Assembly: GCF_003584165.1 (NCBI RefSeq)
Contig: NZ_QXFJ01000009.1
Span: 1 to 64,000, forward strand
DNA: 64,000 nt
Origin: Flagellimonas aequoris
GTDB taxonomy: Bacteria > Bacteroidota > Bacteroidia > Flavobacteriales > Flavobacteriaceae
Direction: 5' to 3'
Part shown: positions 1-37,548 of the stretch, piece after piece
Position numbering within the stretch: position 1 is the stretch's first letter
How the letters are laid out: each line of letters opens with the position of its first letter
Program-made: the position numbers and the translations under genes
The notes under the pieces: model-generated
Databases searched by the model: none
What the model was told of the DNA's origin: nothing
The model's input: only the letters and a program-made list of their open reading frames with translations

Positions 1-30
1 TGGAAACGCCGGACATAGTATACCACCCTC

Positions 31-99
31 GCCGGGTTAAAGTGACCATAGCTGGCCGGACGAAAGTGACCCACCCCCGCCGGGCCAAAGTGACCCACC
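31..99. repeat. IS21 left-end transposase-binding repeats
   Basis: Three direct copies of an 18-19 base motif lie at about 31-48, 56-74 and 80-98, each reading GCCGG followed by four variable bases and AAGTGACC. The same motif appears inverted at the right end of the element. IS21-family elements carry such multiple terminal repeats as IstA-binding sites. Confidence 0.8.
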
Positions 100-154
100 T
101 TTAGATTAGATCTATCTGTAAAAAGTCTAAGTGCTTTTTTTGTTAAAAAGCACC

Positions 155-1699
155 ATGGCGAACAAGCAGATAGACATGCGAAAAACAAAACTGATTTACA
201 AACTGTACACCTCCGGTACGAGCAAGCGTGGGATAAGCCAACAATTGGGCATATCCCGTGTCACGGTCAGGAAGTACATCGAATTCTTCAGGCGGTACCG
301 TTTTACCGCCTACGAAGTGGAGAAGATGACCCTAGAGGAACTCCACAACCTTTTTAAGGACGGGCAAAAGCGCAAGAGCCAACGTTTGCTGACCTTAAGG
401 CAGTACTTTCCCTATTTTGACAAAGAGCTTCGCAAGACCGGGGTGACCAGACAATTGTTATGGGAAGAATATTATGCCAAGCACCCCGATGGCTTCAAGC
501 TCTCACAGTTCAAGTATTGGTACGCCGAATGGCGCAAGGAGACCTCTCCGGTAATGCACATGGAGCACAAGGCCGGCGACAAGCTCTTTATAGACTTCAC
601 GGGAAAGAAACTCCATATTGTTGACAGGGACACCGGTGAACTGAAGGAACTGGAGGTGTTCGTGTGTATACTCGGTAGCAGCCAATACACTTATGTAGAG
701 GCCTGTGCAAGCCAAAAACTGGAGGACTTCATCCGCTGCACCGAGAACGCACTATGGTTCTACGGCGGCGTACCAAAGGCCTTGGTGCCGGACAACCTTA
801 AGTCGGCGGTTACCAAGAGCAGCCGTTACGAGCCCAAGGTCAACGAGGTGTTCGCCGACTTTGCCGAACACTACGAAACGGCAGTACTGCCCACACGTAC
901 CTATAGGCCAAGGGACAAGGCCATAGTGGAGAACGCCGTGAAGATAATCTACACCAGGGTGTTCGCCCCTTTACGGAACCAGGTCTTCCATAGCATGACC
1001 GATATCAACATCGCGATAAGGGAACTGTTGGAAAAACACAACGCAATGTCGTTCAGGGGAAGGGAATATTCCAGGTGTTCGCTTTTTATGGAGATCGAGA
1101 AGGACGAACTGATGCCGTTACCGGCGAAACGCTATGAGGTAAAACGCTATGCCCAGGCCACCGTACACAAGAACAGCCATGTTTATTTTGGGAAGGACAA
1201 GCATTATTACAGCGTGCCCTACAGGCATATAGGCAAACAGGTCAAGCTGGTCTATACCGACAGTATCGTCGAGATCTACCATAAGCACGAAAGGTTCGCC
1301 GTACATACAAGGAACAGGAAGAAATACGGCTATACCACCTTGGCCGACCATATGCCCTCGCACCATCGTTTCATAAGCGAGTGGAGCAGTGAAAAGTTCA
1401 TCGATTGGGCAAGCGATATCGGCGGACACTGTAAAGGGTACATCATTGCCATCCTGGAGAAGAAGCAACACCCGGAACAATCCTATAAGTCCTGTCTGGG
1501 CGTGCTCCACCTTGCCAAAAAGTACGGAAGGGAACGTCTTGACGGTGCCTGTAGGCGTGCCGCGGAATATGGTGCGTACAATTACAATATGGTCGAGCGC
1601 ATCCTGAAAAAGGGGTGGGACCAGATCGATGAAGGTATCGACGGGGACATGGAAATGCCCGAGCACAACAACATAAGGGGAGGAAAATACTACGAATAG
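155..1699 (+). CDS. istA: IS21-family transposase IstA
   Basis: DDE-type integrase/transposase that cuts and joins the element ends, working with IstB. The N-terminus has a helix-turn-helix (GISQQLGISRVTVRKY) that should bind the terminal repeats. The catalytic triad, counted from the ATG, is Asp147 (in FIDFTGKK), Asp213 (in VPDNLKSAV) and Glu259 (in AIVENAV), with the D-D and D-E spacing expected of the rve fold. A C-terminal beta-barrel-like region follows. I chose ATG at 155 (MANKQIDMRKT); an in-frame GTG at 131 would add eight residues of no obvious value. Length (about 514 residues) is normal for IstA and nothing looks broken, so the element may be active. Confidence 0.95.
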   Translation: MANKQIDMRKTKLIYKLYTSGTSKRGISQQLGISRVTVRKYIEFFRRYRFTAYEVEKMTLEELHNLFKDGQKRKSQRLLTLRQYFPYFDKELRKTGVTRQLLWEEYYAKHPDGFKLSQFKYWYAEWRKETSPVMHMEHKAGDKLFIDFTGKKLHIVDRDTGELKELEVFVCILGSSQYTYVEACASQKLEDFIRCTENALWFYGGVPKALVPDNLKSAVTKSSRYEPKVNEVFADFAEHYETAVLPTRTYRPRDKAIVENAVKIIYTRVFAPLRNQVFHSMTDINIAIRELLEKHNAMSFRGREYSRCSLFMEIEKDELMPLPAKRYEVKRYAQATVHKNSHVYFGKDKHYYSVPYRHIGKQVKLVYTDSIVEIYHKHERFAVHTRNRKKYGYTTLADHMPSHHRFISEWSSEKFIDWASDIGGHCKGYIIAILEKKQHPEQSYKSCLGVLHLAKKYGRERLDGACRRAAEYGAYNYNMVERILKKGWDQIDEGIDGDMEMPEHNNIRGGKYYE

Positions 1700-1723
1700 G
1701 AACAATACTTAAAAACAGAACAT

Positions 1724-2461
1724 ATGAACGAAAAAACAATGCAATCGATGAAAGAAATGAGGCTCTATGGAATGCACAGGGCCTTCACCACAACAATGGA
1801 AACCGGCGGTCCGTCCACCGGTTACACCAACGATGAACTGATCGCCTATCTCGTCCAGAGCGAATGGGACGACCGTCACAACCGTAGGATAGAGCGATTG
1901 ACCAAGTCCGCAAGGTTCAGGTATACGGCCGTCATGGAAGCTATAGACTACCGACCGTCGCGCCAACTGGACAAGAACCTGGTCCGGCGGCTCGGTTCCT
2001 GCGGGTTCATCCAAAAAAGGGAGAACATACTTATTACCGGTAGTACCGGCGTGGGCAAAAGTTACCTGGCATCGGCCATCGGCCACCAGGCCTGTTCCAT
2101 GGGGTCAAAAACGATGTACTTCAATACTGCGAAGCTCTTTACCCTGCTCAAGACATCAAAGGCAGACGGTTCCTATCCAAAACAGATAAACAAACTTGAA
2201 AAACAGGACTTGCTCATCTTGGATGACTTCGGCCTTAAACCATTGGACAACATCAATAGGCATGCACTTATGGAGATCATCGAGGACAGGCACGGCAAAA
2301 AATCCACTATAATAGCATCACAATTGCCCGTATCAAAGTGGCACGACATTATCGGGGAGAAAACACTGGCCGATGCCATCCTCGACCGTTTGGTGCATAC
2401 AGCCCACAGAATAGATATAAAAGGAGAATCAATGAGAAGAAAATTGAAAAATAAAAACTAA
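1724..2461 (+). CDS. istB: IS21-family helper ATPase IstB
   Basis: DnaC-like AAA+ ATPase that assembles on target DNA and recruits and activates IstA. Visible motifs are Walker A (GSTGVGKS), Walker B (LLILDDFG) and a sensor-like IIASQLPVSKW segment. At 245 residues it is the usual size. It starts 24 bases after istA, in the same direction, as in other IS21 elements. The start ATG at 1724 opens MNEKTMQSMKEMRLYGM, a typical IstB N-terminus. Confidence 0.95.
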   Translation: MNEKTMQSMKEMRLYGMHRAFTTTMETGGPSTGYTNDELIAYLVQSEWDDRHNRRIERLTKSARFRYTAVMEAIDYRPSRQLDKNLVRRLGSCGFIQKRENILITGSTGVGKSYLASAIGHQACSMGSKTMYFNTAKLFTLLKTSKADGSYPKQINKLEKQDLLILDDFGLKPLDNINRHALMEIIEDRHGKKSTIIASQLPVSKWHDIIGEKTLADAILDRLVHTAHRIDIKGESMRRKLKNKN

Positions 2462-2498
2462 GTTTAACCCAAGGATAGATCAAATCTGGGCAGTCCAT

Positions 2499-5400
2499 TT
2501 GCCATGGTCAGTTTCATCCGGCGAAGGTGGGTCAGTTTACCCGGCTTATCCAGTTTTAACACGTTCCGCAATTGAAAAACCGATAAGTTATACAAGTGAT
2601 TTTGTTAAAATTAGATCATCACACTTTATTGAATCGCGAAGAAAAATATACACTTCAGACTCAATTAAATACATTCAAGCCACGATAAGGGGGGACAACG
2701 AGGAATATATTCCAAATAAAGAGGTACAAGAAAACCTTACGTTTTTCCTTCAAAATATTTTTAGGAAAAAAAGTTTTAGAGAAGGTCAATTACCTATCCT
2801 TAATAGAGCAATACAGGGAAAAAGTGTAATTGGTTTACTTCCAACAGGAGGGGGTAAATCATTAACATATCAATTGGCCTCCATTCTTCAACCTGGGGTT
2901 ACCATGGTCATTGATCCTATTAAATCTTTGATGCAGGACCAGTTTGATAGTTTGGTTAAAAATGGAATTGATTGCTGTAATTTCATCAATTCAAAACTGG
3001 ATAGGTTTGAAAGAGAAGTTGAAATTGATAAATTAACCAAAAGCAATATTTTATTCTCTTTTATTTCTCCTGAAAGGTTGCAAATAGATAGTTTTAGAAC
3101 AACTCTTCAATCCATGCATGATAATTCAGTCTATTTTAGTTATTGTGTTATTGATGAAGTTCATTGCGTTTCAGAATGGGGTCATGATTTTAGAACATCA
3201 TATTTAAGTCTGGGGAAAAATGCCCTGGAACACTGTAAGACTAAAAATTACCCAAACCAGTTAGTCCCCTTGTTTGGTCTCACTGCTACAGCTTCATTCG
3301 ATGTTCTTTCCGATGTTGAAAGAGAACTTTCAGGAGATGGACAAATGGAGTTGGACGCAGAAGCAATTGTTCGCTTTGAAAACACGAACCGAAACGAGCT
3401 TCAGTATCAAGTCATTGAAGTAAAATCGGATTTTGACAAAAAGGACCCAATCACAAAAAAACTGCCTAGTGGAAATAAATTGACATTTTCTGTTTCTCCA
3501 ATTGAGGGGGCTATTAAGAATAAAATTGCTGAAGACAAACAAGCTAGAATAGTTGAGCTATTAACCGAGATTCCAAAACAAATTGAGTTTTATAATAATC
3601 AAAGTGATGAGCTAATTGCTTTAGCTAAGAAAAGAGTTTTCGATGATTCTCAATTGCGTTTGGCAGATATTGCAATTTCGGAATTTAATCCAGATTCTTT
3701 CTACGAGCAACAAGATATTGATGAGTCATCGTTTTTTGAAAATGGGGGTATTGTATTTGTACCACATAGAACATGGTATCAGGGAGTAACCGACCAATTC
3801 AAATTTGACACCTACGATCAAAAGGTATATGATGATGAGGGTAATATAATTCATGATTTTGGCGATTTCATTTTAGATGATAATGGCAATAAAGTTAGAT
3901 TGACGCTCTCAAAAAGAAAAGGCATTGCCGATACTATTCAAAAATCAAATTCAAAGTATGCGGTGGGAATCTTCATGGGAAGTTCTGATGAAGATGATAA
4001 AACTGGTAAGGAAATTGAAGCTTCATCTTTCTCAAACCAATCAAAGTTCATTAACAGTGAGCAAAATATCATGGTTGCTACTAAGGCTTTTGGAATGGGT
4101 ATTGACAAGCCAAATGTTCGGTTTACCATACACTTTAATTTTCCAAGTTCAATAGAAAGTTTCGTTCAGGAAGCTGGCAGGGCTGGTCGTGACAGAAAAA
4201 TAGCATTAAGTTCGATTATATTCAATCAGCAACTTATATACTATTTCAATTCCGATTTTTATAAAGGAATAAAGGACCATTTCACAGAGGACGTTTATAA
4301 AAAATTGTCTTTGTTTAAGGGTGAACGTTTTCTTGAAGATGATTTGCGGATTATTTTAAATGAGGTAGGACTCAACAACTTATTTGATGAAGAAGTTTTT
4401 AAGGAACATATTGGAATAATCAATGTTGATAGGGACAATTTAAAATACTTCCATGATAACTCTTTCAAGGGTGAAGAAAAGGAAAAGGTTGTTATATATG
4501 AACTTCTTAACCGTATAAGTTTTCCGAATTCTAATCAGATTAAAAGTCTATCGGAACAACTTGAAGAAGTTACTGGATTGGATGAAGTTTATTTGTCCTT
4601 AAATAATAATTGGTTAAATGTTAATGCAGGTTTTCGCCAGAAAATAGGAGGAATTAATCTTAATAATTTCCGCTATAGCTTTCACTTTTCAGTTTTTGAA
4701 AGAAATGTTGCGGAACAAATATTAAATTCTTTAGTTGTCATTATAAAAGCTTCCTTTGTCAGCTACGAAGATACTACACTACTTATCAATTGGCTTAACC
4801 AAGCAATTGCCACGGAATTTGAAGATGGTATTGAGAAAAAATTGGAAAATATTGAAACTGGTGATGTTGTCAACCCAGAAATTGAAATTCATTTCAATAA
4901 CAAATATGCTGATAAGAAAATTTATATTCGAGAATTAACGGCAAAACTTCAGTCATCAATAAGCGAGCGGATTAACCAACAGAATGTCGAAGATTGTTTA
5001 TGTCCTGATTATATGGAATTCATTGGCAACCTTGCTGATAAAAGGCCCGATTTACAAATCAATGACCTTGATGATCAGGTTTTAAATAAAGCCTTGGTGA
5101 TATTTTATAGTCCTAGAACAAAAGCAGACACCGACAAAGCTCTGTTTCGTCTTTTATCCATAGGGGTTATTGACGACTATACAGTAGATTATAACAAGAA
5201 AACGTATACACTTAAAGTTGTTAAGAAAGCAGAAGGAGAATATAAAAACCGCCTATTTAATTACATAAAACGTTACTACTCTGAAATTCGGGCAAATCAA
5301 GAAATTCAAAAAGTTTCAGAGTATCGGGGCAATACTGAAATTCAGAAATGCTTAGGTTTCTTGACCGATTTTATATATCGAGAAATTGAACGAAAACGCC

Positions 5401-6008
5401 TAAGAGCGATTGATGATATGATTTTTGCTTGCAGAATAGGACTGCAAAAAGATGGAAATGAAGAATTAAAGGATTTCATTTTTATGTATTTCAATTCCAA
5501 GTATGCAAAAAAAGACTATACAATTAATGGTGAGGAATATTCCTTGACGGTTGATACAAATGACGCTAAGGATTTTAGTTTTGATAATGTTTGGAAGTAT
5601 ATTGAAGCAATAAAAATTGATGATGGTTCCGAAAAGGACAATGTTAAACATTTGAGGGGAGCTTGTTTGAGATTACTAAGGACAAATCCTGAAAATGGTG
5701 CTTTATTGGTTTTAAAATCATTTACGCTGTTTGTCTTGGGCTTTGGCACTAATGAAGTTTTGTATAAGGAAACAAAAGACGGATTTATAGAAGGGTTTAA
5801 GTCATTCAGAAGGCATTTTCCAGAAATGCAATTTCAAGATTTGATCAATAACATTCTTTTATTCAAAGAACAAACTTTACAGTTTGCCAATAATAAAGAT
5901 GAAGTGTTGTTGGTGATGGATGAATTCATCCATTTATTATATGTTGACTTTCATAAAGATTGGCTAGCTAAATTTAATGATAGATATTTAAAAGGTTATG
6001 ACAGATAA
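2499..6008 (+). CDS. RecQ-like superfamily 2 helicase, 5' end replaced by IS21
   Basis: A RecQ-type ATP-dependent helicase. It shows Walker A (GLLPTGGGKS, 112-121), a DEVH box (219-222) followed by the RecQ aromatic loop SEWGHDFR (225-232), motif III (LTATAS, about 262), AFGMGIDKPNVR (about 527) and arginine-finger motif VI (QEAGRAGRDR, 557-566). About 240 residues lie between the two RecA lobes, longer than in housekeeping RecQ, and about 600 residues of unrecognised, mostly helical sequence follow; I see no RQC zinc site or HRDC domain. The first roughly 17 codons, including the TTG start at 2499, are read from the IS21 right-end repeats. The native start and any N-terminal domain are therefore lost or lie beyond the IS; no in-frame ATG precedes the Walker box. 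It overlaps the next gene by 11 bases. Probably a defence helicase by context, but this is inference. Confidence 0.8.
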   Translation: MPWSVSSGEGGSVYPAYPVLTRSAIEKPISYTSDFVKIRSSHFIESRRKIYTSDSIKYIQATIRGDNEEYIPNKEVQENLTFFLQNIFRKKSFREGQLPILNRAIQGKSVIGLLPTGGGKSLTYQLASILQPGVTMVIDPIKSLMQDQFDSLVKNGIDCCNFINSKLDRFEREVEIDKLTKSNILFSFISPERLQIDSFRTTLQSMHDNSVYFSYCVIDEVHCVSEWGHDFRTSYLSLGKNALEHCKTKNYPNQLVPLFGLTATASFDVLSDVERELSGDGQMELDAEAIVRFENTNRNELQYQVIEVKSDFDKKDPITKKLPSGNKLTFSVSPIEGAIKNKIAEDKQARIVELLTEIPKQIEFYNNQSDELIALAKKRVFDDSQLRLADIAISEFNPDSFYEQQDIDESSFFENGGIVFVPHRTWYQGVTDQFKFDTYDQKVYDDEGNIIHDFGDFILDDNGNKVRLTLSKRKGIADTIQKSNSKYAVGIFMGSSDEDDKTGKEIEASSFSNQSKFINSEQNIMVATKAFGMGIDKPNVRFTIHFNFPSSIESFVQEAGRAGRDRKIALSSIIFNQQLIYYFNSDFYKGIKDHFTEDVYKKLSLFKGERFLEDDLRIILNEVGLNNLFDEEVFKEHIGIINVDRDNLKYFHDNSFKGEEKEKVVIYELLNRISFPNSNQIKSLSEQLEEVTGLDEVYLSLNNNWLNVNAGFRQKIGGINLNNFRYSFHFSVFERNVAEQILNSLVVIIKASFVSYEDTTLLINWLNQAIATEFEDGIEKKLENIETGDVVNPEIEIHFNNKYADKKIYIRELTAKLQSSISERINQQNVEDCLCPDYMEFIGNLADKRPDLQINDLDDQVLNKALVIFYSPRTKADTDKALFRLLSIGVIDDYTVDYNKKTYTLKVVKKAEGEYKNRLFNYIKRYYSEIRANQEIQKVSEYRGNTEIQKCLGFLTDFIYREIERKRLRAIDDMIFACRIGLQKDGNEELKDFIFMYFNSKYAKKDYTINGEEYSLTVDTNDAKDFSFDNVWKYIEAIKIDDGSEKDNVKHLRGACLRLLRTNPENGALLVLKSFTLFVLGFGTNEVLYKETKDGFIEGFKSFRRHFPEMQFQDLINNILLFKEQTLQFANNKDEVLLVMDEFIHLLYVDFHKDWLAKFNDRYLKGYDR

Positions 6009-6741
6009 TAAAGAACTCTATTCGGCTCTATTTGATTTGGAAAAGGAATTGAACAGTCTCAAATCGGCAAAACAACAAATAGAAGAAGTTATCGCTATAG
6101 GTAATAATGTTGTAAAAGGTTTTGAAGTTCTAAATAATAATTATAGCGAATATTTGTCGGGCTTAGGGGATGATTATCAATCTAAGTTGGAATTGCTCGC
6201 GAATACAGTTGCGGAGATAAAAACCAAACAAGCTACTTTTTCTGAAGAACTAAAAGATATATCAAGTAGCTTTATCAAAAAGCAGTCTGAATCCAACGAA
6301 TTGAACCAAAAAAACTTGATGTTATCCACCAAATCCTTAATTGATGAGTTGATAACATCTTTAAATAACACAATAAACTCAACAACCGAGGTTTATCAAA
6401 ATCAGAATCAAAAGATTAACGAACAACTGGATTTTTATAATTCTTTTGTAAGTAAAGTGGAACAATTGACAACGATAATTGGAAGTGTTGATTTTCCGAA
6501 TAGATTGGACAAACTTGATAATACAGTAAGTGCAATTAATATAGGGATTCAGAATAACCAAGCAAAACTGGATGAGCTAAATAATTCTGTTAGAAAGGAA
6601 TTGGGAGAAACAGTCTCAAAAATTAATCAAGGCTTTGAGAATTTGGAAGACCACATTAAAACAAAAAGTCGAAATACAATTATTGCAGTTGGTATAGGGA
6701 TTGTATTAAGTCTTGGTATTTTATTTAAGTTACTTATGTGA
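5998..6741 (+). CDS. Tail-anchored coiled-coil membrane protein, partner of the helicase
   Basis: A 247-residue protein of unrecognised family. Residues 5-220 are almost entirely heptad-like helix rich in Lys, Glu, Asn and Gln, with no enzymatic motif. Residues about 226-246 form one hydrophobic helix (IIAVGIGIVLSLGILF), so it should be anchored at its C-terminus with the coiled coil in the cytoplasm. There is no signal peptide. The ATG at 5998 overlaps the helicase stop by 11 bases, indicating translational coupling and a joint function. A likely role is to hold the helicase at the membrane or to transmit a signal or oligomerise; all are inferred. Codon use is as AT-rich as the helicase gene, so the two arrived together. 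Confidence 0.8.
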   Translation: MTDNKELYSALFDLEKELNSLKSAKQQIEEVIAIGNNVVKGFEVLNNNYSEYLSGLGDDYQSKLELLANTVAEIKTKQATFSEELKDISSSFIKKQSESNELNQKNLMLSTKSLIDELITSLNNTINSTTEVYQNQNQKINEQLDFYNSFVSKVEQLTTIIGSVDFPNRLDKLDNTVSAINIGIQNNQAKLDELNNSVRKELGETVSKINQGFENLEDHIKTKSRNTIIAVGIGIVLSLGILFKLLM

Positions 6742-6779: not shown

Positions 6780-6807
6780 GTATACCACGGCCGGATGAAA
6801 GTGAGCA
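6780..6807 (+). mobile_element. Solo IS21-like terminal sequence (remnant)
   Basis: GTATACCAC at 6780-6788 is directly followed by GCCGGATGAAAGTGAGCA (6790-6807). The first string also occurs at 18-26 beside the IS21 left end, and the second closely matches that element's terminal repeats, in the left-end orientation. No transposase gene follows; the Fic gene begins 130 bases on. It therefore looks like a stranded end of a second related IS, left by deletion or one-ended transposition. Confidence 0.5.
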
Positions 6808-6867
6808 GTTCAATTAATCCGCTTTTAGTAGTTTTCAGTAACCATCTCTTCCATTTACATCTTTTGG

Positions 6868-6936
6868 GCTATAAAAAATTAATTTATAGCTCATACTTTT
6901 ACTATTTTTGAGCTATAAAAATTAATTATTTAGCTC
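6868..6936 (+). promoter_or_regulatory. Paired palindromic operators and -7 element of the Fic gene
   Basis: Two related AT-rich palindromes precede the Fic start codon. The first has arms GCTATAAA and TTTATAGC (6868-6890); the second has arms GAGCTA and TAGCTC (6910-6936) and ends on the base before the ATG. They share a core near GCTATAAAAA-TTAATT and sit about 42 bases apart. A Bacteroidota -7 element (TATTTTTG, 6903-6910) lies between them and touches the second, so a bound protein would block transcription. The winged-helix C-terminus of Fic is an obvious candidate autorepressor; that is inference. Confidence 0.6.
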
Positions 6937-8046
6937 ATGACAGCTTTTAAATGGAACTGGCAACAAAAGGACTGGCCTAATTTCAGATATGATGAGGCAG
7001 CTTTGGAGCACCTAGAATATCAGTTTGTCCAAACTAGTGGAGTAGCTCTAGGCTCCATTAAACATATTGATGAGGAAGACAAAAATGAGCTTTTAATTGA
7101 AGTTTTGTCGGATGAAGCTCTTACTACATCGGCAATTGAAGGGGAATATCTTGACCGTGGGAGTATTCAGGAATCCATCAAAAAAAACTTAGGACTTGAA
7201 ACGGAAAGAAAGAAACTTCCCCAAGCTGAATATGGAATATCTGAAATGATGGTCAATCTATATCGTACATATGCAGTACCATTGACCCATGAACAACTTT
7301 TTGAGTGGCATCAGATGCTCTCCAATGGCAGAAGGGATTTAGTGGATATTGGAAGATATCGTACCCATGAAGATCCAATGCAAGTTGTTTCAGGACGCCT
7401 CGACAAACCGACGGTACATTATGAGGCACCTCCCTCATCACAAATGACGAATGAAATGGAAGCTTATGTTCGTTGGTTCAACGAAACCCACACGACAAAC
7501 AAATCCAAAATGCTTCCATTGGCCAAGTCAGGATTGGCACATTTTTACTTTTTGGCCATCCACCCCTTTGAAGGCGGAAATGGACGTATTGCTAGAGGGA
7601 TTTCAGAAAAATCGATTTCCATGGATTTGGGCAGACCAGCACTTATATCCCTATCACAGACCATCGAGTCCAATAAAAAAGAATACTATTCTTCCATCGA
7701 AGCCCATAATTTCAAACTAGACCTTACTGAATTCCTACTATACTTTGGGGAAACTATACTTGCAGCACAACAACACACCATCAAAACCATTGACTTTTTG
7801 ATTCAAAAAGCCAGGTTCTTTGATCAATACTCCCGTTTGATGAACGAACGCCAGCTAAAAGTAGTCCAACGTATGTTCAAAGCAGGATATAAGGGATTTA
7901 AAGGAGGGCTTAGTGCGGACAATTATATTCGTATAGCCCAAACATCTGCATCAACGGCCACACGTGATTTAAAGGATTTGGTCAACAAATCCATATTAGT
8001 CAAATCTGGTGAACTCAAAAGCACCCGGTACTCACTAAACCTATAG
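6937..8046 (+). CDS. Fic-family protein adenylyltransferase (DUF4172-Fic-wHTH)
   Basis: A 369-residue Fic protein that should transfer AMP, or another nucleotide moiety, from a nucleotide to a protein hydroxyl. Order: N-terminal DUF4172-like region (FKWNWQQKDWPNF), an inhibitory-helix motif TSAIEG (64-69, the T/S-xxx-E-G/N type), the Fic core with the complete motif HPFEGGNGR (catalytic His209), and a C-terminal helix-turn-helix region (IAQTSASTATRDLKDL). Because the inhibitory motif is N-terminal in the same chain, it belongs to the self-inhibited class and needs no separate antitoxin; none is seen nearby. It stands alone between an IS remnant and an integrase on the opposite strand, inside the mobile island. 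Two palindromes immediately upstream suggest autoregulation. Confidence 0.92.
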   Translation: MTAFKWNWQQKDWPNFRYDEAALEHLEYQFVQTSGVALGSIKHIDEEDKNELLIEVLSDEALTTSAIEGEYLDRGSIQESIKKNLGLETERKKLPQAEYGISEMMVNLYRTYAVPLTHEQLFEWHQMLSNGRRDLVDIGRYRTHEDPMQVVSGRLDKPTVHYEAPPSSQMTNEMEAYVRWFNETHTTNKSKMLPLAKSGLAHFYFLAIHPFEGGNGRIARGISEKSISMDLGRPALISLSQTIESNKKEYYSSIEAHNFKLDLTEFLLYFGETILAAQQHTIKTIDFLIQKARFFDQYSRLMNERQLKVVQRMFKAGYKGFKGGLSADNYIRIAQTSASTATRDLKDLVNKSILVKSGELKSTRYSLNL

Positions 8047-8094: not shown

Positions 8095-9357
8095 TTATGA
8101 AATTCCCCAGGCCTCTTTCAATTTTTGTGCGGCCTCATAGTTTGAAATTTTGAGATAACGGCGGAAAGCCTTTTCTGATTTATGGCCTGAAATTTTCATG
8201 ATGAGTTGCACATCAATACCATTTAGGTAAGCATTGGTGCAAAAAGAACGCCTACAGGTATGGGAACTTATCAATTTATATTTCTCCAAAAGTTGGGCTT
8301 CTTTAATTGTTCCCCGTTTATGTTCAATTTCTACTTTTTGGTGAAGTTTGGCCGAATCCCCAAGTTCCTTTATGCGCCTGTTGAAAGTGAATGAATCAAT
8401 ATCAGGGGCATATCCATCATATTTTCTCAAAATGCTCTTGACTTGGGAACGAAGTGGCACTACAATTCGGCCAGAAGTCTTCTTTTGTCGGATATTCAAA
8501 AACCCATTATCATCCAAATACTCAGGTCGAATCCTTGAAATATCAGAAAACCGAAGCCCTGTCAAACACCCAATTACAAAGAAGTCTTTTACTTTCCTCA
8601 ATTCTTCATCGGCTTTACAATCTACGGCTGCAATAGCCTGAATTTCATCATCGGACAAATAGATGTGATCCACTTCTTCTTGGACTACCTTGAATGCCGA
8701 AAGATCTATGAGCTTTATACGGTTTCTTCGCATACGGTCGTTTAAGAAAGCCTTTAAGTTTTTAACCAACTTGCCTATGGTGTTGTTCTTCATTCCGACA
8801 CCCCCATTCTTTAATGGAGCATGGTACGCTAGGTAATCCGTCCATTCTTGATAGAAATGATAATCAAAGGCATTGAAATCGATGATGATTCCCGAAAATT
8901 CCTGGAAACCCTCCAAATGCTTTCTAAGTGAATTGTAATCCTTGATAACATCTTTGACCACCTTGCTCTTTTTACTTTCTAGATAATGGTCAAATTCAGT
9001 AAAAAAGTCTTGGACAGGTTTTGAATTGATGGACGGTTCACCTTCTTCAAATTGTTTCTTGAACATCTTTTTTGAAAGTGGCCTGCCCTGATTTCGATAG
9101 CTGGAAACAATTTGATTGGCCAAGCTGTCCATTTGGGTAAGTTGGACAAATTCAGAACCCACTTCCTTTGATTTTTTAAGGAACGATTTATCCTTGTTCC
9201 AATACTTCATGGCAATTTCAATTCCCGTATCGATTTGGATTCTTACATGACGATTTTCATAGTATCTTAATTTGATACTATGGGTGCCATTTTTGTTTGG
9301 TAATTCTGAAATATAAAAATTGTAATTATACATTTGCGTGCTGCATTCGTGCTGCAT
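8095..9357 (-). CDS. Tyrosine-type site-specific integrase
   Basis: A 420-residue phage-type recombinase with an N-terminal arm-binding region, a SAM-like core-binding region (about 120-225) and a C-terminal catalytic domain. The catalytic residues appear complete: Arg in CLTGLRFSDISRI, Lys in QKKTSGRIVVPL, the HxxR motif (SHTCRRSF), His in KISGHKSEKAF and the nucleophile Tyr in RRYLKIS. This arrangement is typical of Bacteroidota mobile-element integrases. It lies at the right edge of the AT-rich island and reads back into it, so it probably inserted the island. ATG at 9357 was taken; another Met lies eight codons in. No tRNA target is visible next to it. Confidence 0.92.
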   Translation of the reverse strand: MQHECSTQMYNYNFYISELPNKNGTHSIKLRYYENRHVRIQIDTGIEIAMKYWNKDKSFLKKSKEVGSEFVQLTQMDSLANQIVSSYRNQGRPLSKKMFKKQFEEGEPSINSKPVQDFFTEFDHYLESKKSKVVKDVIKDYNSLRKHLEGFQEFSGIIIDFNAFDYHFYQEWTDYLAYHAPLKNGGVGMKNNTIGKLVKNLKAFLNDRMRRNRIKLIDLSAFKVVQEEVDHIYLSDDEIQAIAAVDCKADEELRKVKDFFVIGCLTGLRFSDISRIRPEYLDDNGFLNIRQKKTSGRIVVPLRSQVKSILRKYDGYAPDIDSFTFNRRIKELGDSAKLHQKVEIEHKRGTIKEAQLLEKYKLISSHTCRRSFCTNAYLNGIDVQLIMKISGHKSEKAFRRYLKISNYEAAQKLKEAWGIS

Positions 9358-19896: not shown

Positions 19897-20117
19897 CGGT
19901 ACGAATGTACACAAAATATCACCTCGGGCATTAACCTACCGTCTCGCTCTGATTTACAAATTGTCGGAATTCGCAGTCGAGACTCTTTTGTTAACACCTG
20001 ATTTTCGAATCTATTCAAGATATAGTTTGTTATATATCAATTATAAATAGATTTTCACATACAATATTAGTAAAAATATTTTATTTTTTCTTATAATTAT
20101 TATATATATTCTGATTT

Positions 20118-20138
20118 ATATCACATATAATGTGATAT
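20118..20138. promoter_or_regulatory. Palindromic operator candidate upstream of 20203
   Basis: A perfect inverted repeat with nine-base arms (ATATCACAT / ATGTGATAT) and three bases between them, 64 bases before the gene. TCACA/TGTGA half-sites are typical of dimeric HTH regulators. It could control the downstream small gene, possibly by self-regulation. Confidence 0.45.
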
Positions 20139-20202
20139 TTGATTGATTGTGAACAGCATAGAGTGATCTTAGATTCAATTTTAAGAAATCAATCATGCTA
20201 TT

Positions 20203-20574
20203 ATGGTTAAAAAAACAGATAAATCAGAAGAAAAAAACTCAGCCAAGTTCGAGAAAAGAGTAAATCCATATACTCTGCTAGAATCTCTTAGAAATCTTAA
20301 GTCTCGCTTTGCGACCGGGGATGTGCAATCTATGAAAGAGGTTTCCGGTGCCTATGCTACTGGAATGCCTTTTGCGTTGGGCATAAGCTATGAAACAATG
20401 ATTAATCGCTATCACGATCCTAGGAAGTTAACACTGGAAGATATACTGAACACTGCTGACATTACAAGTACAGAATATGAAACAGTAATGAATGTTGCGG
20501 TACGGGAGGCTATAAAGAACCACACCAAAAGGGATATTTCAAAACTTTTACCAAAAGATGAGGGAAACCATTAA
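20203..20574 (+). CDS. Small HTH-like protein of unknown function
   Basis: A 123-residue protein with a Lys-rich N-terminus and no signal or membrane segment. Residues about 40-95 (SMKEVSGAYATGMPFALGIS; YHDPRKLTLEDILNTADI) read like the compact helix-turn-helix proteins common in Bacteroidota, in which a short region including LGI is followed by a basic patch and a second helix pair. I do not recognise a named family. It stands alone behind an AT-rich region with a palindrome, and the next gene is on the other strand. A DNA-binding regulator is likely but not shown. Confidence 0.6.
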   Translation: MVKKTDKSEEKNSAKFEKRVNPYTLLESLRNLKSRFATGDVQSMKEVSGAYATGMPFALGISYETMINRYHDPRKLTLEDILNTADITSTEYETVMNVAVREAIKNHTKRDISKLLPKDEGNH

Positions 20575-20999
20575 AGAACATCCCTTAGACCTAAATCTAT
20601 ATTAAAACCTACAAAAGATATTGTCCAAATTTCCAGAAACATGGCAGGCTTCAAACGGTTATTTAATCGATTTTTTTGAATGCTCCAATTACTCGAGAAT
20701 TCTAATCTAAAATTCTTATAATTCCGTTCGCACTCACCATTAAACTTTCCTTAAGAACAAGATTACGACACCCAAAATCTCAAATTATTTTGTGGTATTC
20801 TTGATAGTGGCAATTTCTTTAGGGCACACAAGTCCCAATAATAAATCTTTCCCATGAGGAGCATATACAAAAGAAAAAGAGGCGTTATGCCACTTTTATA
20901 TAAGGGCAAAATACAATTGGTAACAAAGCGCAGTAAAAAATTGGTCCCGTAACCAAAAATTAAAGATTTGCAGCTCCCCAACAGACGGGTTACCATTCT
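20575..20999. other. Non-coding interval, nothing recognised
   Basis: Between two convergent genes. A 77-codon minus-strand frame in it (20763-20996) is hydrophobic but has no plausible domain; I see no other feature. Confidence 0.5.
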
Positions 21000-22583
21000 T
21001 TACTCCTGATTTGACCTTAAGGGTGGGTTCATCCAAAATATGGTTTCCTTTTCCCCAGAAACCGCTTTGCTACTGAAAATCGGTTTATCGTCCGGCATAA
21101 ACTCTCCGTTAAAGGGAACCATTTTTCCCTTGTTGATGTTCTGCACAAAGAATTCCCTGTATTGTTCATAATCCTTCGTGTGGACCGCGTTGATAAGCTC
21201 CCCTTGCAAATTGCGAACATCCTTCAACTCAATTTCAAGCAACTTATTGAGGGAATCTCCCCGAGTATCCATTTCTTTCAGGGTGGTGACCATATCCTTC
21301 AACTCATCTTCATCCATCCGTGGATATAGCAGTACCGAATTTCCTTCTTTTTCCATCAACCTAAAGCTTAACCTCTTCCCCTTGTATCTTATATTATAGG
21401 TCCTCTGTTCCAACGCAGATCTGGTCTCTGGCTCCGTGTTGAAATTCACCGCCAGACATTTTCTGTTGATGTCCATGACCACATCTTCCACAATAAAAGC
21501 AGGTGGTAACCGCAGCTCAAATGTGTTGTGGAAGGAAATATAGTTCAAGTACATTTGGTCATCCTTTTTTCTGTACTCCAAAACCACTTCAAAAATCAAT
21601 TGGTTGCCCATAAACTGGTTTCCTTTTTTCTCGGTCTCCCTTGTCACGTTCTTGTTGAACAGTGCATATTCCATTTTATAAATGGAAAAATCGAATTGGG
21701 ACACATATAGTTTGCCTGTTGCAAGATTATCCTGGCAGTTCCGTTTAAACTCGATCACATATAAGGGTTCCCCATCAAAATTTATGGGATCCATCTTGGA
21801 GAAGGTATGATGGGGGATGAAATCGATTTGCAACACGTTCACAAAATCATAGGAATCCACCAGATAGTTTCTGATGGCATCATGGACCCTTAGAATGGTG
21901 AACTCGTTCCCTCCATAGGGTTTTAAAAAGGCCTTCTCTATCATTTTTTGGCCCGTTCGGTAATCATAGCTTTGGCGGGCAAGGGTATCCACTTTAAAAG
22001 TCTTGTTGATTCGTTGGTCGTACATCTGGACCTTTGTAGCGGTTCTATCCATACTGTGGAAACCAGGGTCAAAAACCTCCAATATGGCCTCGTTGAGGTT
22101 GATGTAGTTTCCTTCATCCACTTGATAGTCCCGATAATATCCCACCAACGAAAAGGGTGCGTTTGGATAGTTTTTCGGAATGTTCTCTATTGCCTTTTTT
22201 ACAATTTCTTGGGCCCCATAACGTTTGGTACGTTTTCCAATGACCACGGTCTCATCCAAGTTGAAGATTTCCTCTTTCACCGAAATGATGTTCACTTGAT
22301 CCACATTCAGGTCGGACAGCTTTACTTCCAAGGTCCTGTACCCCAAACAGGAAATTTCGAGGACATCGCCCAAATCCAAATATTCATCCGGAACAACAAA
22401 ACTGCCATCTGCATTGGTGATGACCCCTACCGATTTTCCTTTAAGCCTTACCGTGGCAAAAACAACAGGTTCCCTTGTTGCCTCATCAACGAGCTTCCCT
22501 GTGATGAAATTTTTCTCTTGGGAAAAGAGCCCTAATGGCGCATACAGCATTAAGACAAGAAGGATAAGTTTTTTTAGATTCAT
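21000..22583 (-). CDS. Secreted protein with carboxypeptidase-regulatory-like domain
   Basis: A 527-residue exported protein: signal peptide (LILLVLMLYAPLGLFSQ) then a CarboxypepD_reg-like beta-sandwich at about 25-110 (ITGKLVDEATREPVVFATVR; TNADGSFVVP) of the kind that precedes TonB plugs, and about 400 residues of unrecognised mainly beta sequence with GLAKYVIEFKRN-like strands. There is no barrel or plug, so it is not a TonB receptor. It follows the S41 peptidase gene by eight bases on the same strand, so the two probably form one transcript. Role unknown; likely at the outer membrane or cell surface. Confidence 0.75.
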   Translation of the reverse strand: MNLKKLILLVLMLYAPLGLFSQEKNFITGKLVDEATREPVVFATVRLKGKSVGVITNADGSFVVPDEYLDLGDVLEISCLGYRTLEVKLSDLNVDQVNIISVKEEIFNLDETVVIGKRTKRYGAQEIVKKAIENIPKNYPNAPFSLVGYYRDYQVDEGNYINLNEAILEVFDPGFHSMDRTATKVQMYDQRINKTFKVDTLARQSYDYRTGQKMIEKAFLKPYGGNEFTILRVHDAIRNYLVDSYDFVNVLQIDFIPHHTFSKMDPINFDGEPLYVIEFKRNCQDNLATGKLYVSQFDFSIYKMEYALFNKNVTRETEKKGNQFMGNQLIFEVVLEYRKKDDQMYLNYISFHNTFELRLPPAFIVEDVVMDINRKCLAVNFNTEPETRSALEQRTYNIRYKGKRLSFRLMEKEGNSVLLYPRMDEDELKDMVTTLKEMDTRGDSLNKLLEIELKDVRNLQGELINAVHTKDYEQYREFFVQNINKGKMVPFNGEFMPDDKPIFSSKAVSGEKETIFWMNPPLRSNQE

Positions 22584-34910: not shown

Positions 34911-35129
34911 AGTTTAGTTGATGAGGTTGTCCTTACGTAGTAAGACATACCCAAACATATCAAGAACGCCCGTAAAATGGGAAGTTATGTTGTATTACGG
35001 CGATCAAATGTTGTGAAACATCGGATAAACGATGAAAGCCAACCTTTTAATTTGATTCCTTTTGTTGGGCCATGACAATCAACTCAGATTCTATTCTTAT
35101 GCAAAACCATTGATTACAAATAGATTACC

Positions 35130-35161
35130 ATAAAAAAAGCTCGCCAATTTGACGAGCTTTA
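35130..35161 (-). terminator. Terminator of the small repeat-protein gene
   Basis: Eight-pair stem AAAGCTCG / CGAGCTTT with a 7- to 8-base loop; on the minus strand a T run follows. It lies after the 115-codon frame. Confidence 0.7.
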
Positions 35162-35195
35162 TGTTTTGAAAGGATTGAATAGCTTTTTAAGAATT

Positions 35196-35510
35196 TTACT
35201 TTTCTGGTTCCCAATAATTTCCTCTCTCTGGACGTGCGTTTTTTGCCAGACCACCGGTTAGTTTTCGTCTTTCCCTAAAAACAATGGGCATGGTCTCACA
35301 GACATCCTCAAATGGCCTTCGGTTCTTTGCCAATGGACCCATTATCGGCTTATGGTCATGATCTTTGATTACCCATATGGATTGTGGTTTTGGGTTCTTC
35401 CATGGCTTTCTATTTTTAGCCCTTGGTCCTGTTAAAATATCTTCTTGGCCATAGGCAAAGAAAGCTCCCAAAATCATCATTAAAAAAGTAATATAAAAAT
35501 TATAGGCCAT
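35196..35510 (-). CDS. Small secreted protein with three AKN-R-P repeats
   Basis: A 104-residue protein from the Met at 35510 (MAYNFYITFLMMILGAFFAY), which gives a clear signal peptide; the open frame reaches 35543. Three copies of a short motif are seen, numbered from 35543: TGPRAKNRKPW (38-48), MGPLAKNRRPF (68-78) and TGGLAKNARPE (96-106), about 30 residues apart. The exported part is basic and proline-rich with few hydrophobic residues. No family is recognised. It is a single-gene transcript with its own terminator. It could bind an acidic polymer or an RNA-like surface, or be a cell-wall protein; this is speculation. Confidence 0.65.
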   Translation of the reverse strand: MAYNFYITFLMMILGAFFAYGQEDILTGPRAKNRKPWKNPKPQSIWVIKDHDHKPIMGPLAKNRRPFEDVCETMPIVFRERRKLTGGLAKNARPERGNYWEPEK

Positions 35511-35703
35511 ATATTTTACGATATTATCAATTAATAGTCGCAAAAATATAAATATTTCAATTTCGGTGATAGATAATTATTTGTTAAAATGACCAATTTC
35601 CATGTCAAATATTAGTTAATCCAAAAAGGGGATTTCCCAATGAAAACCAAACAGGATTTTAAATGGAATATAACGTAGAAGTGATTTTGTCTAGGGTTTT
35701 TAG

Positions 35704-35741
35704 AAAAAAAAGAGGCCACGATAATACGGCCTCTTTTTTGG
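35704..35741 (-). terminator. Terminator of the nrdB-nrdA unit
   Basis: Stem AAAGAGGCC / GGCCTCTTT with a 10-base loop and a T run on the minus strand, 17 bases beyond the nrdA stop. Confidence 0.85.
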
Positions 35742-35757
35742 TTTAGGTTGTAGTTAG

Positions 35758-37548
35758 TTACGCTTCGCAACTGGTGCATTCCTTTTTTTGCTTGAACTTC
35801 TGTGCAGCGTTCATACTGTGTTGGTAGTAAAGCGACTTTAATCCAAGCTTCCATGCTGTTACATGGATCTTGTTGATTTCCTTGGTCGGCATTTCGGGGT
35901 GTACGATGATGTTCACCGATTGCCCCTGATCAATATGGTTCTGTCTGTTGGCAGCTTGGTAAATAATATCCAACTGATCTAGCTCAGAATACGTTTTGAA
36001 CACAGCCTTTTCTTCCTCGGTCAAGAAATCCAAGTGTTGTACCGAACCGTCCATATCGCGGATGCTTTTCCAAACCTCGTTGGTATTCTGTCCTTTTTCT
36101 TCCAAAAGGTCCATCAAATATGGGTTTTTGATGGTCACCTTGATCTTGGCGATATCCTTCACATAACAGTTGGACCAAATCGGCTCAATTCCTTGGGAAA
36201 CCTGACCCAAAATAAAAGCTGAGGAAGTGGTTGGGGCAATGGCGTTCAAGGTCGCATTTCTTCTGCCATACCCCTTCAACACTTCGGGTTCACCAAAACG
36301 CTCGGCCAATTCGCCAGAAGCTTTGTAGGAACGCTCTTTGATGGTCCTGAAAATTTCACTGTTCAGGTTATAGGCATCCTGACTATCAAAAGCCAAGCGC
36401 TTGGATTGCAACAAAGAGTGCCAACCCAATACACCCAATCCCAAGGCACGGTTCTCCTTGGCAAAGTTGTAGGCCCTTTCCATGAACAAGAAGGTTTGCC
36501 TATCATCACGATCGGAGGAATCCCGAAACGCCTCCAGTTTTTCAACAAATTCGGTGATTACGGCATCCAAGAAATATACCATGGTCTCCACGGCATCCGT
36601 GTTTTTCCATTTGTCATAATGCAACACATTGATGCTGGACAACACGCATACAAAAGACCAGTTATCATTAGATGGCAACATGATTTCGGTACAAAGGTTA
36701 CTGGCATGGATCCTGTGGTCCTTGTCCTTGTACACGTCTACTGCGCCATTGTTGGCATTATCGGAAAAGAAGACATATGGATATCCCATCTCTCCCCTTC
36801 GCTGCAACACTTTGGCCCAAACGGTCCTTTTGTCCACATCACCAGCAATCATTTCCTCCATCCATTGGTTGGTTACGGTAACGCCGTGGGTCAATTGTTG
36901 AATGGGGTTCCCTTCGGTACCGATTTCCAAGAACTCTAAGATATCCTTATGATCAATGGGCAGGTATGGGGAAAATCGGCCGCGACGCACCGACCCTTGA
37001 CTTACCACATCTACCATGGATTCGAACAATTGCATAATGTGCACCGCACCGGAAGCCTGACCATTATTCTTTACAGGCGCACCCCTATGACGGATTTTCC
37101 CAAAATACCCAGAGGTACCACCACCCAATTTGGACATCATCCCTACCTCGGATTGCGTATACAAGATATTTCCCATATCATCATCAATATGCGAACCAAA
37201 ACAACTAATGGGCAAACCACGTCTTTTCCCAAAGTTGGACCATACAGGCGATGCCAAGGAAAAATATCCTTCGGACATATAGTTGTAGAACTTATCGGAA
37301 TAGCCAGGCATCTGTAATATCTGCTCGGCACGATCCCCAATTTCACGGATACGTTGCTCGGGTGTCACTCCTTCGGTCAGATAGCCCGATGCCAAAAACT
37401 GGCGGCTATATTCGTTCAACCATTCAAATCCGCCCTGTTCTTCCTTTGTCTTTGCTTTTGCCAAAGTATCCTTTCTGGCGTTGATAAGATCTTGGGTCTT
37501 GTCTATCTTTTGGTCAGTAATGTGGGGTACGTTTGTTTTGTTCTCCAT
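35758..37548 (-). CDS. nrdA: Class I ribonucleotide reductase, alpha subunit without ATP-cone
   Basis: Catalytic subunit that makes dNDPs from NDPs using the radical from NrdB. Segments seen: LASPVWSNFG, PISCFGSHIDD, LGGGTSGYFGKIRHRGAP, NLCTEIMLPSN (active-site Cys), and the C-terminal CTSCEA, a CxxC for reduction by thioredoxin or glutaredoxin. At 596 residues it is shorter than the E. coli enzyme (761) because the N-terminal ATP-cone is absent; the cone is on NrdB instead. It starts two bases after the nrdB stop. The order nrdB-nrdA is unlike the usual nrdA-nrdB. Confidence 0.96.
   Translation of the reverse strand: MENKTNVPHITDQKIDKTQDLINARKDTLAKAKTKEEQGGFEWLNEYSRQFLASGYLTEGVTPEQRIREIGDRAEQILQMPGYSDKFYNYMSEGYFSLASPVWSNFGKRRGLPISCFGSHIDDDMGNILYTQSEVGMMSKLGGGTSGYFGKIRHRGAPVKNNGQASGAVHIMQLFESMVDVVSQGSVRRGRFSPYLPIDHKDILEFLEIGTEGNPIQQLTHGVTVTNQWMEEMIAGDVDKRTVWAKVLQRRGEMGYPYVFFSDNANNGAVDVYKDKDHRIHASNLCTEIMLPSNDNWSFVCVLSSINVLHYDKWKNTDAVETMVYFLDAVITEFVEKLEAFRDSSDRDDRQTFLFMERAYNFAKENRALGLGVLGWHSLLQSKRLAFDSQDAYNLNSEIFRTIKERSYKASGELAERFGEPEVLKGYGRRNATLNAIAPTTSSAFILGQVSQGIEPIWSNCYVKDIAKIKVTIKNPYLMDLLEEKGQNTNEVWKSIRDMDGSVQHLDFLTEEEKAVFKTYSELDQLDIIYQAANRQNHIDQGQSVNIIVHPEMPTKEINKIHVTAWKLGLKSLYYQHSMNAAQKFKQKKECTSCEA

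Follow-up and report, generated by a model that had tools for sequence, protein, structure and literature searches.

In several defence systems, enzymes that process DNA are coupled to a membrane component, and the RecQ-like helicase SngC belongs to one defence system, Shango; the way in which a helicase-nuclease might be positioned at the membrane has, to our knowledge, received little study. Another RecQ-type pair, RqlH-RqlI, is the same pair as PsyrTA, and RqlI is, as far as we know, not a membrane coiled coil. RqlH, a genotoxic helicase of the RecQ family, is reported to be held in check by RqlI, with which it shares one operon, and its toxicity to be due to its phosphoribosyltransferase domain (PMC4670107). 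For Zorya, it has been proposed that the inner-membrane complex ZorAB recruits a soluble nickase (PMC13192584). Here we analyse two adjacent genes, A and B, in a stretch of 64,000 nucleotides from Flagellimonas aequoris (contig NZ_QXFJ01000009.1, positions 1 to 64,000, forward strand; hereafter the window, whose position 1 is the first base of this contig, C9). Gene A encodes a RecQ-type helicase and gene B a predicted tail-anchored, coiled-coil-like protein. The comparison of loci strongly supports A-B as a conserved two-gene unit, which is real and widespread and probably represents a helicase-nuclease defence system with a membrane tether. We found no description of the pair in the family libraries and open-access papers searched, a weak negative given that most subscription papers fall outside this scope.

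As in RqlH-RqlI, the helicase of A-B is of the RecQ type and shares its operon with a partner. A toxin-antitoxin or self-control arrangement, in which free A would be genotoxic and B would restrain it by sequestration at the membrane, would fit this two-gene layout with its short overlaps or gaps, and has a precedent in the restraint of RqlH by RqlI (PMC4670107). However, the phosphoribosyltransferase to which that study attributes the toxicity of RqlH was not found by Pfam in four intact A proteins (no match to E 0.5), and we consider this arrangement quite improbable. The likeness to Zorya is one of working only, namely a membrane complex with soluble effectors; B weakly resembles the coiled coil of ZorA (0.0027) and had no MotA/ExbB-type Pfam match, while ZorC, ZorD and ZorE were absent from the 25 matches listed for A. 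To SngC of Shango, the A protein of the window gave a match of just 17.4 bits over 80 residues.

The evidence for A-B as a unit comes from the gene that follows A. In four plasmid records from three species (Haliscomenobacter, Salinibacter and two Rhodothermus marinus strains), the gene for an intact A protein of 1243-1476 amino acids precedes that for a small protein with a single membrane helix at its C-terminus. A scan of named genomes returned 80 loci, 20 of which were kept as clear relatives of A because the match reached the C-terminal region (two of them, L062 and L066, are 5'-incomplete); these came from Bacteroidota, a Kapaibacterium, Bacillota and Pseudomonadota. The other 60 loci were treated as ordinary RecQ, though not proven one by one, and yielded 53 control frames with downstream room. 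Under a fixed tail-anchor rule applied to the gene immediately following in the same orientation, 19 of the 20 relatives had an anchored neighbour; at the remaining locus (L058), a B-like frame opens and ends after 47 codons. The same rule picked out none of the 53 control frames of ordinary RecQ and, among 411 genes of at least 300 amino acids, a single one. When 395 genomes of the same phylum, taken in a wide sense, were searched with a profile, A was found in 23, our genome included. At the 22 other loci, 18 B proteins are tail-anchored, three are helical with an amphipathic tail, and one locus lies at a contig end; a B-like partner was thus the next gene in 21 of the 21 evaluable loci. The tail-anchor rule itself held in 16 of the 23 sample rows: L140 and L145 fail it but show a membrane helix on reading, and the remaining failures are the amphipathic tails of L146, L150 and L151 (the last counted as two rows, since its A is split between two frames) and L143, which ends with its contig. 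Two loci recur between the scan, plasmid and sample sets, L130 repeating L050 and L137 repeating L042. The preliminary description of this locus, made from the sequence alone, had made conservation of the two neighbours in other genomes a point to be checked, and these counts bear the linkage out. Moreover, the core of A and the first 70 residues of B co-diverge over 40 loci (r = 0.67, a value as high in 0 of 2000 permutations, in a test that ignores the relatedness of the loci). Bacteroidota, Pseudomonadota and Bacillota all contain such pairs, as do phage contigs.

In the window itself, gene A is interrupted by an insertion sequence (IS) of the IS21 family, while gene B is intact. The features are as follows, with positions in the window unless another contig is named:

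1..2552, forward strand: IS21-family element inside gene A (identical 2552-bp copy on contig C8; Pfam IstB_IS21 and rve)
131-1699 and 1724-2461, forward strand: istA and istB, respectively, the genes of the IS21-family element
2553..2559, forward strand: right copy of a 7-bp target-site duplication (also present just before the IS copy of C8)
2553..6008, forward strand: 3' part of gene A, RecQ-type helicase and C-terminal region (1151 codons and stop)
L049:2553-3780 on contig C8, minus strand: 5' part of gene A, 407 codons, with a nuclease-type motif
2784..3308, forward strand: helicase lobe 1, PF00270 DEAD (Pfam E 1.6e-16; residues 96-270)
3309..3881, forward strand: inter-lobe insertion between the two Pfam lobes, of varying length among relatives
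3882..4193, forward strand: helicase lobe 2, PF00271 Helicase_C (Pfam E 5.1e-12; residues 462-565)
5121..5216, forward strand: helix and beta-hairpin, winged-helix-like (model elements H855-867, E873-877 and E882-886)
5436..6005, forward strand: helical tail at the C-terminus of A, where B is proposed to dock (helices in the model)
5998..6741, forward strand: gene B, coiled-coil-like, with one C-terminal membrane helix
6679..6735, forward strand: predicted C-terminal membrane helix of B (hydropathy 2.56, residues 228-246)

The preliminary description had reported a helicase frame at 2499-6008 and a second frame at 5998-6741; both are present and overlap by 11 bases (5998-6008), as stated there. 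The gene start at 2499, however, has to be given up: the right end of the IS is 2552, which places this TTG within the element, and native gene A sequence begins at 2553. From 2400 on, the first 153-158 bases are repeated elsewhere in the genome because they form the end of the IS21-family element. With the N-terminus of an intact relative as the query, the missing N-terminal half of A was located on contig C8 (34% identity, E 2e-40), the start of which is the reverse complement of the window's IS copy, identical over 2552 bases. GTTTTAA is duplicated on the outer flanks of the C8 and C9 copies, and since the C8 part minus this duplication comprises 407 whole codons and the window part opens on a codon boundary, the halves are in register. 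Given the identical IS copies, the 7-bp duplication and the conserved register, gene A appears to have been split by a single event, and the simplest reading is that one IS21 insertion parted the nuclease-like half of A from its helicase half. This disruption and the N-terminal half had escaped the preliminary description, as had three further AT-rich genes of the same cassette on C8. The AT-rich character that it gave for both genes does hold (G+C content of 32.9% for A and 30.9% for B, and 30.6-32.9% when the three C8 genes are included, versus 44.0% for window 10-64 kb), and the IS, Fic protein and integrase it placed nearby were each found by Pfam. Two more AT-rich dips occur in the window, at 20001-21000 (32.7% G+C) and 35001-36000 (36.3% G+C).

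The motor of A has both lobes of the RecQ family (TIGR00614 and TIGR01389; structures of E. coli RecQ, RECQL5 and BLM), to which the best structural and profile matches of the lobes belong. Indeed, the protein of the window passes TIGR00614 (226.5 bits versus a cut-off of 219.8), and structure modelling, which had been suggested at the outset, recovered RecQ-like lobes (Foldseek E 7e-18 against RecQ cores), though for the N-terminus it gave no match at E 0.001. Unlike RecQ proteins, A lacks the zinc, RQC and HRDC parts, carries an N-terminal nuclease-like domain and a distinctive tail, is partnered by B, and falls in a clade of its own: the 43 A rows group apart from ordinary RecQ (20 rows) with a support of 100/100, in a tree made of 43 of the 44 A proteins and 20 of the 55 RecQ controls and including no DpdF, PsyrT or SngC. 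The zinc cysteine cluster after motif VI, searched for with one pattern, was seen in 0 of 44 A proteins versus 50 of 55 RecQ controls; RQC and HRDC gave no Pfam match to E 1 in the window protein or to 0.5 in four intact relatives, and no Pfam zinc domain was listed for either. Three A proteins open with a zinc-ribbon pattern. The genome also contains another RecQ-like frame (633 amino acids, contig C30); on the strength of this frame, the separate clade and the missing zinc cluster, we reject the view of A as an ordinary RecQ repair gene, a possibility that the preliminary description had kept in view. Its mention of a large insertion between the lobes and of an unrecognised C-terminal part was accurate: motifs III and IV are 156 residues apart here and 75, 80, 90 and 148 in four relatives (the spacing pattern was absent in two further relatives checked), and the C-terminal part gave no Pfam family above cut-off. 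RecQ-like proteins of the same genus (L044-L047, 1600 amino acids) have no B-like next gene; on this ground and that of their N-terminus they were set aside as another family and stand outside the tree.

In PADLOC, the window helicase is labelled by helicase matches, with DpdF first. The model in question, PDLC02868, matches the N-terminus of the A protein of the same-genus genome G011 (2.5e-26) as well as the window helicase (9.3e-53) and is therefore probably built from A-type proteins. Its label would thus be a probable mis-assignment, and Dpd calls resting on PDLC02868 may be wrong. The A protein of the window lies far under the NCBIfam DpdF cut-off (121.3 versus 550 bits), no dpd gene is named around the four annotated plasmid loci, and the N-terminal half from our own genome has no PDLC02868 match at 0.001.

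Beyond the motor, the model of A contains a helix followed by a beta-hairpin that looks like a winged helix, a name that reflects a reading of the element order, and conserved columns lie near this segment in A2 and A3. The protein ends in the helical tail at which B is proposed to dock, a region placed in the window by its presumed homology to the tail of the Rhodothermus A protein.

With respect to B, the preliminary description of a coiled coil with one C-terminal membrane helix stands for the helix (residues 228-246), which by hydropathy is the only one predicted; the coiled coil is suggested by the sequence and by weak matches to coiled-coil families, which point to a long helical, coiled-coil-like protein. 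Among relatives, B varies from 114 to 501 amino acids, and the anchor is always C-terminal. In three relatives from one family of bacteria (L146:6286-7071, L150:10018-10818 and L151:5748-6209), an amphipathic tail replaces the membrane helix, and L147, from the same genus as two of these loci, keeps the helix. Amphipathic tails of this kind are known from MinD and FtsA. This exchange of a membrane helix for an amphipathic tail argues for B as a tether rather than a killer. The alternative is that A senses foreign DNA and B oligomers then breach the membrane in abortive infection, as in the membrane effector envisaged initially. A coiled coil with one membrane helix would suit an oligomerising effector, and so would the defence neighbourhood described below; yet the three amphipathic tails are a better fit to peripheral anchoring than to a pore, the length of B varies widely around an anchor fixed at the C-terminus, and 31 of 44 A proteins have a nuclease-type motif of their own. 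We therefore regard a killer function of B as rather unlikely, and the effector role as unsupported over that of a tether.

The pair also travels. Eight loci came from viral collections, and the three examined for B (L152, L154 and L155) all have the full pair; on the phage contig L155, A-B follows head genes and an integrase. Exchange of the cassette is apparent from the comparison of the window with G011, for which the relevant features are:

6807, no strand: right edge of the variable cassette (6807-7744 is 95.8% identical to the same-genus G011)
6937..8046, forward strand: Fic protein, PF02661 and PF13776, a flank and not part of the system
8095..9357, minus strand: tyrosine recombinase, PF00589, flank

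At the same site in G011, flanks of 96.7% and 95.8% identity enclose a different A-B pair, the A protein of which sits on another tree branch than that of the window, together with other cargo that includes KwaB-like and GmrSD-like genes, and we read this as one site at which cargo has been exchanged. The Fic copy of G011 is near-identical but truncated and adjoins G011's other A-B pair. It is cut short at a contig start (L043:1-934) with an IS21 end 95% identical to that of the window, which represents a second insertion in the same island.

A defence-like context, for which the preliminary description proposed a test, is supported by the genes around A. At E 1e-15, the neighbours of A matched 163 PADLOC families (133 neighbours) versus 13 for those of ordinary RecQ (130 neighbours), figures that count families, many of which one protein can match, and that compare with control loci mostly from other phyla; the size of the excess is rough because taxa and neighbours per locus differ (up to four per A locus and three per control locus). 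The A side comprised 133 of 140 neighbours, leaving out the A and B pieces of L151, two repeats and two long proteins, and was drawn up without L130, L137 and our own, plasmid, viral and G011 loci; the control side was the first 130 of 155. A DUF1848 protein lies directly upstream of A in seven loci (L055, L058, L060, L061, L063, L064 and L065), called by Pfam in the four tested and by PADLOC in seven, with the other three placed by length and position; at five of the seven loci, the nuclease motif is missing from A. PADLOC lists DUF1848 as part of a reverse-transcriptase (DRT) system. Two neighbours of A match PADLOC CARF_2OG, one of which is AlkB-like by Pfam; an AlkB-like 2OG-Fe(II) oxygenase abuts A in L059:6571-7263 and probably in L131:5147-5758. 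On the Haliscomenobacter plasmid (L039:17443-25401), DrmE-like, helicase-related and DUF1998 genes stand beside A-B.

Abutting AlkB-like and DUF1848 proteins could also suit a DNA-repair or replication helicase of mobile elements that has nothing to do with defence, as could the RecQ-type motor and the carriage on plasmids and phages. This explanation appears unlikely to us, given the patchy distribution of A (23 of 395 genomes), the missing zinc cluster, the PADLOC signal relative to the control and the exchange of cassettes at one site.

We lean instead towards A-B being the core of a mobile system of defence against phages or plasmids, a membrane-tethered nuclease-helicase. Linkage, architecture, membrane-anchor features, disruption, mobility and a defence neighbourhood are all documented here. 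A would be a fusion of a nuclease and a RecQ-type DNA motor that ends in a special tail, and B a membrane-anchored coiled coil that holds A at the inner membrane, docked via this tail. There, A would load on foreign DNA, either incoming or replicating, unwind it and cut it with the N-terminal nuclease; in lineages without the nuclease motif, A might pass the DNA to partner enzymes. A D...ExDG nuclease-type motif, as defined by a loose pattern, occurs in 31 of the 44 A proteins, including the N-terminal half from our own genome. Pfam DUF559 (cut-off 20.6 bits) is above cut-off in the A proteins of G011 (31.2) and Rhodothermus (27). As to a possible restriction-endonuclease fold of the PD-(D/E)XK kind, residues 130-241 of the N-terminal model align with TnsA (Z 6.0) over the motif residues and also with VC1899 (Z 5.6). 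The second-look fold list is informative mainly for residues 40-442 of this model; a Rossmann-like match at residues 268-433 (methyltransferases, Z up to 7.2) was too weak to name. A compact two-gene version would have the advantage that the membrane-tethering role becomes testable via one anchor swap.

Several points nevertheless weigh against this defence reading, in addition to the make-up of the tree, the permutation test blind to relatedness and the PADLOC comparison as qualified above. Of the 44 A proteins, 13 are without the nuclease motif and 3 without the Walker A pattern used in the search. DUF559 stays below its cut-off in Haliscomenobacter (13.8) and Salinibacter (18.2), within a test set of four relatives that lies apart from our genome's own N-terminal half; that half matches no PADLOC model at 0.001, the N-terminal model has no Foldseek match at E 0.001, and the TnsA score of Z 6.0, like the lower one of VC1899, is modest and within reach of unrelated folds. 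The defence neighbourhood is guilt by association, and defence, DNA as the target, cutting, docking and the order of events are what we infer beyond it. Finally, with the two halves of A apart, the A-B pair of this genome is broken and probably not functional as described.

The tail and B may extend beyond the RecQ-type motor. In Rhodothermus, a superfamily 1 (SF1) helicase unrelated to the motor of A carries an A-like C-terminal tail and is accompanied by a tail-anchored homologue of B:

L137:1501-5116 and L163:7413-11019: SF1 helicase with B homologue

The assignment as UvrD-like rests on Pfam matches below cut-offs and motor motifs read by eye. The SF1 tail of genome G150 aligns with the tail of a Rhodothermus A protein over 193 columns (28%, 7.7e-10), and their B partners align over 113 columns (29%, 1.3e-7), E-values that hold for a comparison among four sequences; coiled-coil composition may account for part of the B match. 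For the tail of the R. marinus plasmid SF1 helicase, 37.4 bits were observed versus a maximum of 27.3 in 500 shuffles, a control that covers this tail and not the B match. G150 had no match to the A profile, though the SF1 pair is present there. The tail profile A7 was found in 4 of 296 genomes, two with an SF1 helicase and two of A type, and the SF1-carrying ones belong to the genus of the R. marinus genome, as judged from G155; as seen so far, the SF1 variant is confined to one genus. No SF1 helicase with B' was matched in viral contigs, and no B is annotated after the Picosynechococcus relative of the SF1 helicase. These alignments are most simply read as a tether made up of the tail and B, combined with an engine that varies. 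Tentatively, then, the A tail and B might be a portable membrane-tethering module placed on varied motors, either RecQ-type superfamily 2 (mostly with a nuclease) or SF1 UvrD-like, an idea that we hold as possible rather than probable. If true, membrane-stationed helicases for DNA surveillance would make up a class united by a common anchor and not by a common engine.

Upstream of A on contig C8, three genes lie on the same strand and nearly touch:

L049:3780-13168 on contig C8, minus strand: tightly packed genes for a RecD-like helicase, an SNF2 helicase and an Hsp70-like protein

The RecD-like helicase (1505 amino acids) is matched by the PADLOC candidate PDC-S68. For the SNF2-family helicase (1052 amino acids), the top PADLOC model is DrmD, with DrmD models (1.3e-123) scoring better than DpdE models (4.7e-43). 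The Hsp70-like protein (543 amino acids) was named from a reading of its N-terminus, with no Pfam match above cut-off, and was rejected as a core part of the system, since at E 1e-8 it occurs in 1 of 296 Bacteroidota genomes, our own. At L136:12069-16615, a weak Hsp70-like relative (26%, 2e-12) and an SNF2 gene (37% identity) run convergent to an adjoining A-B pair.

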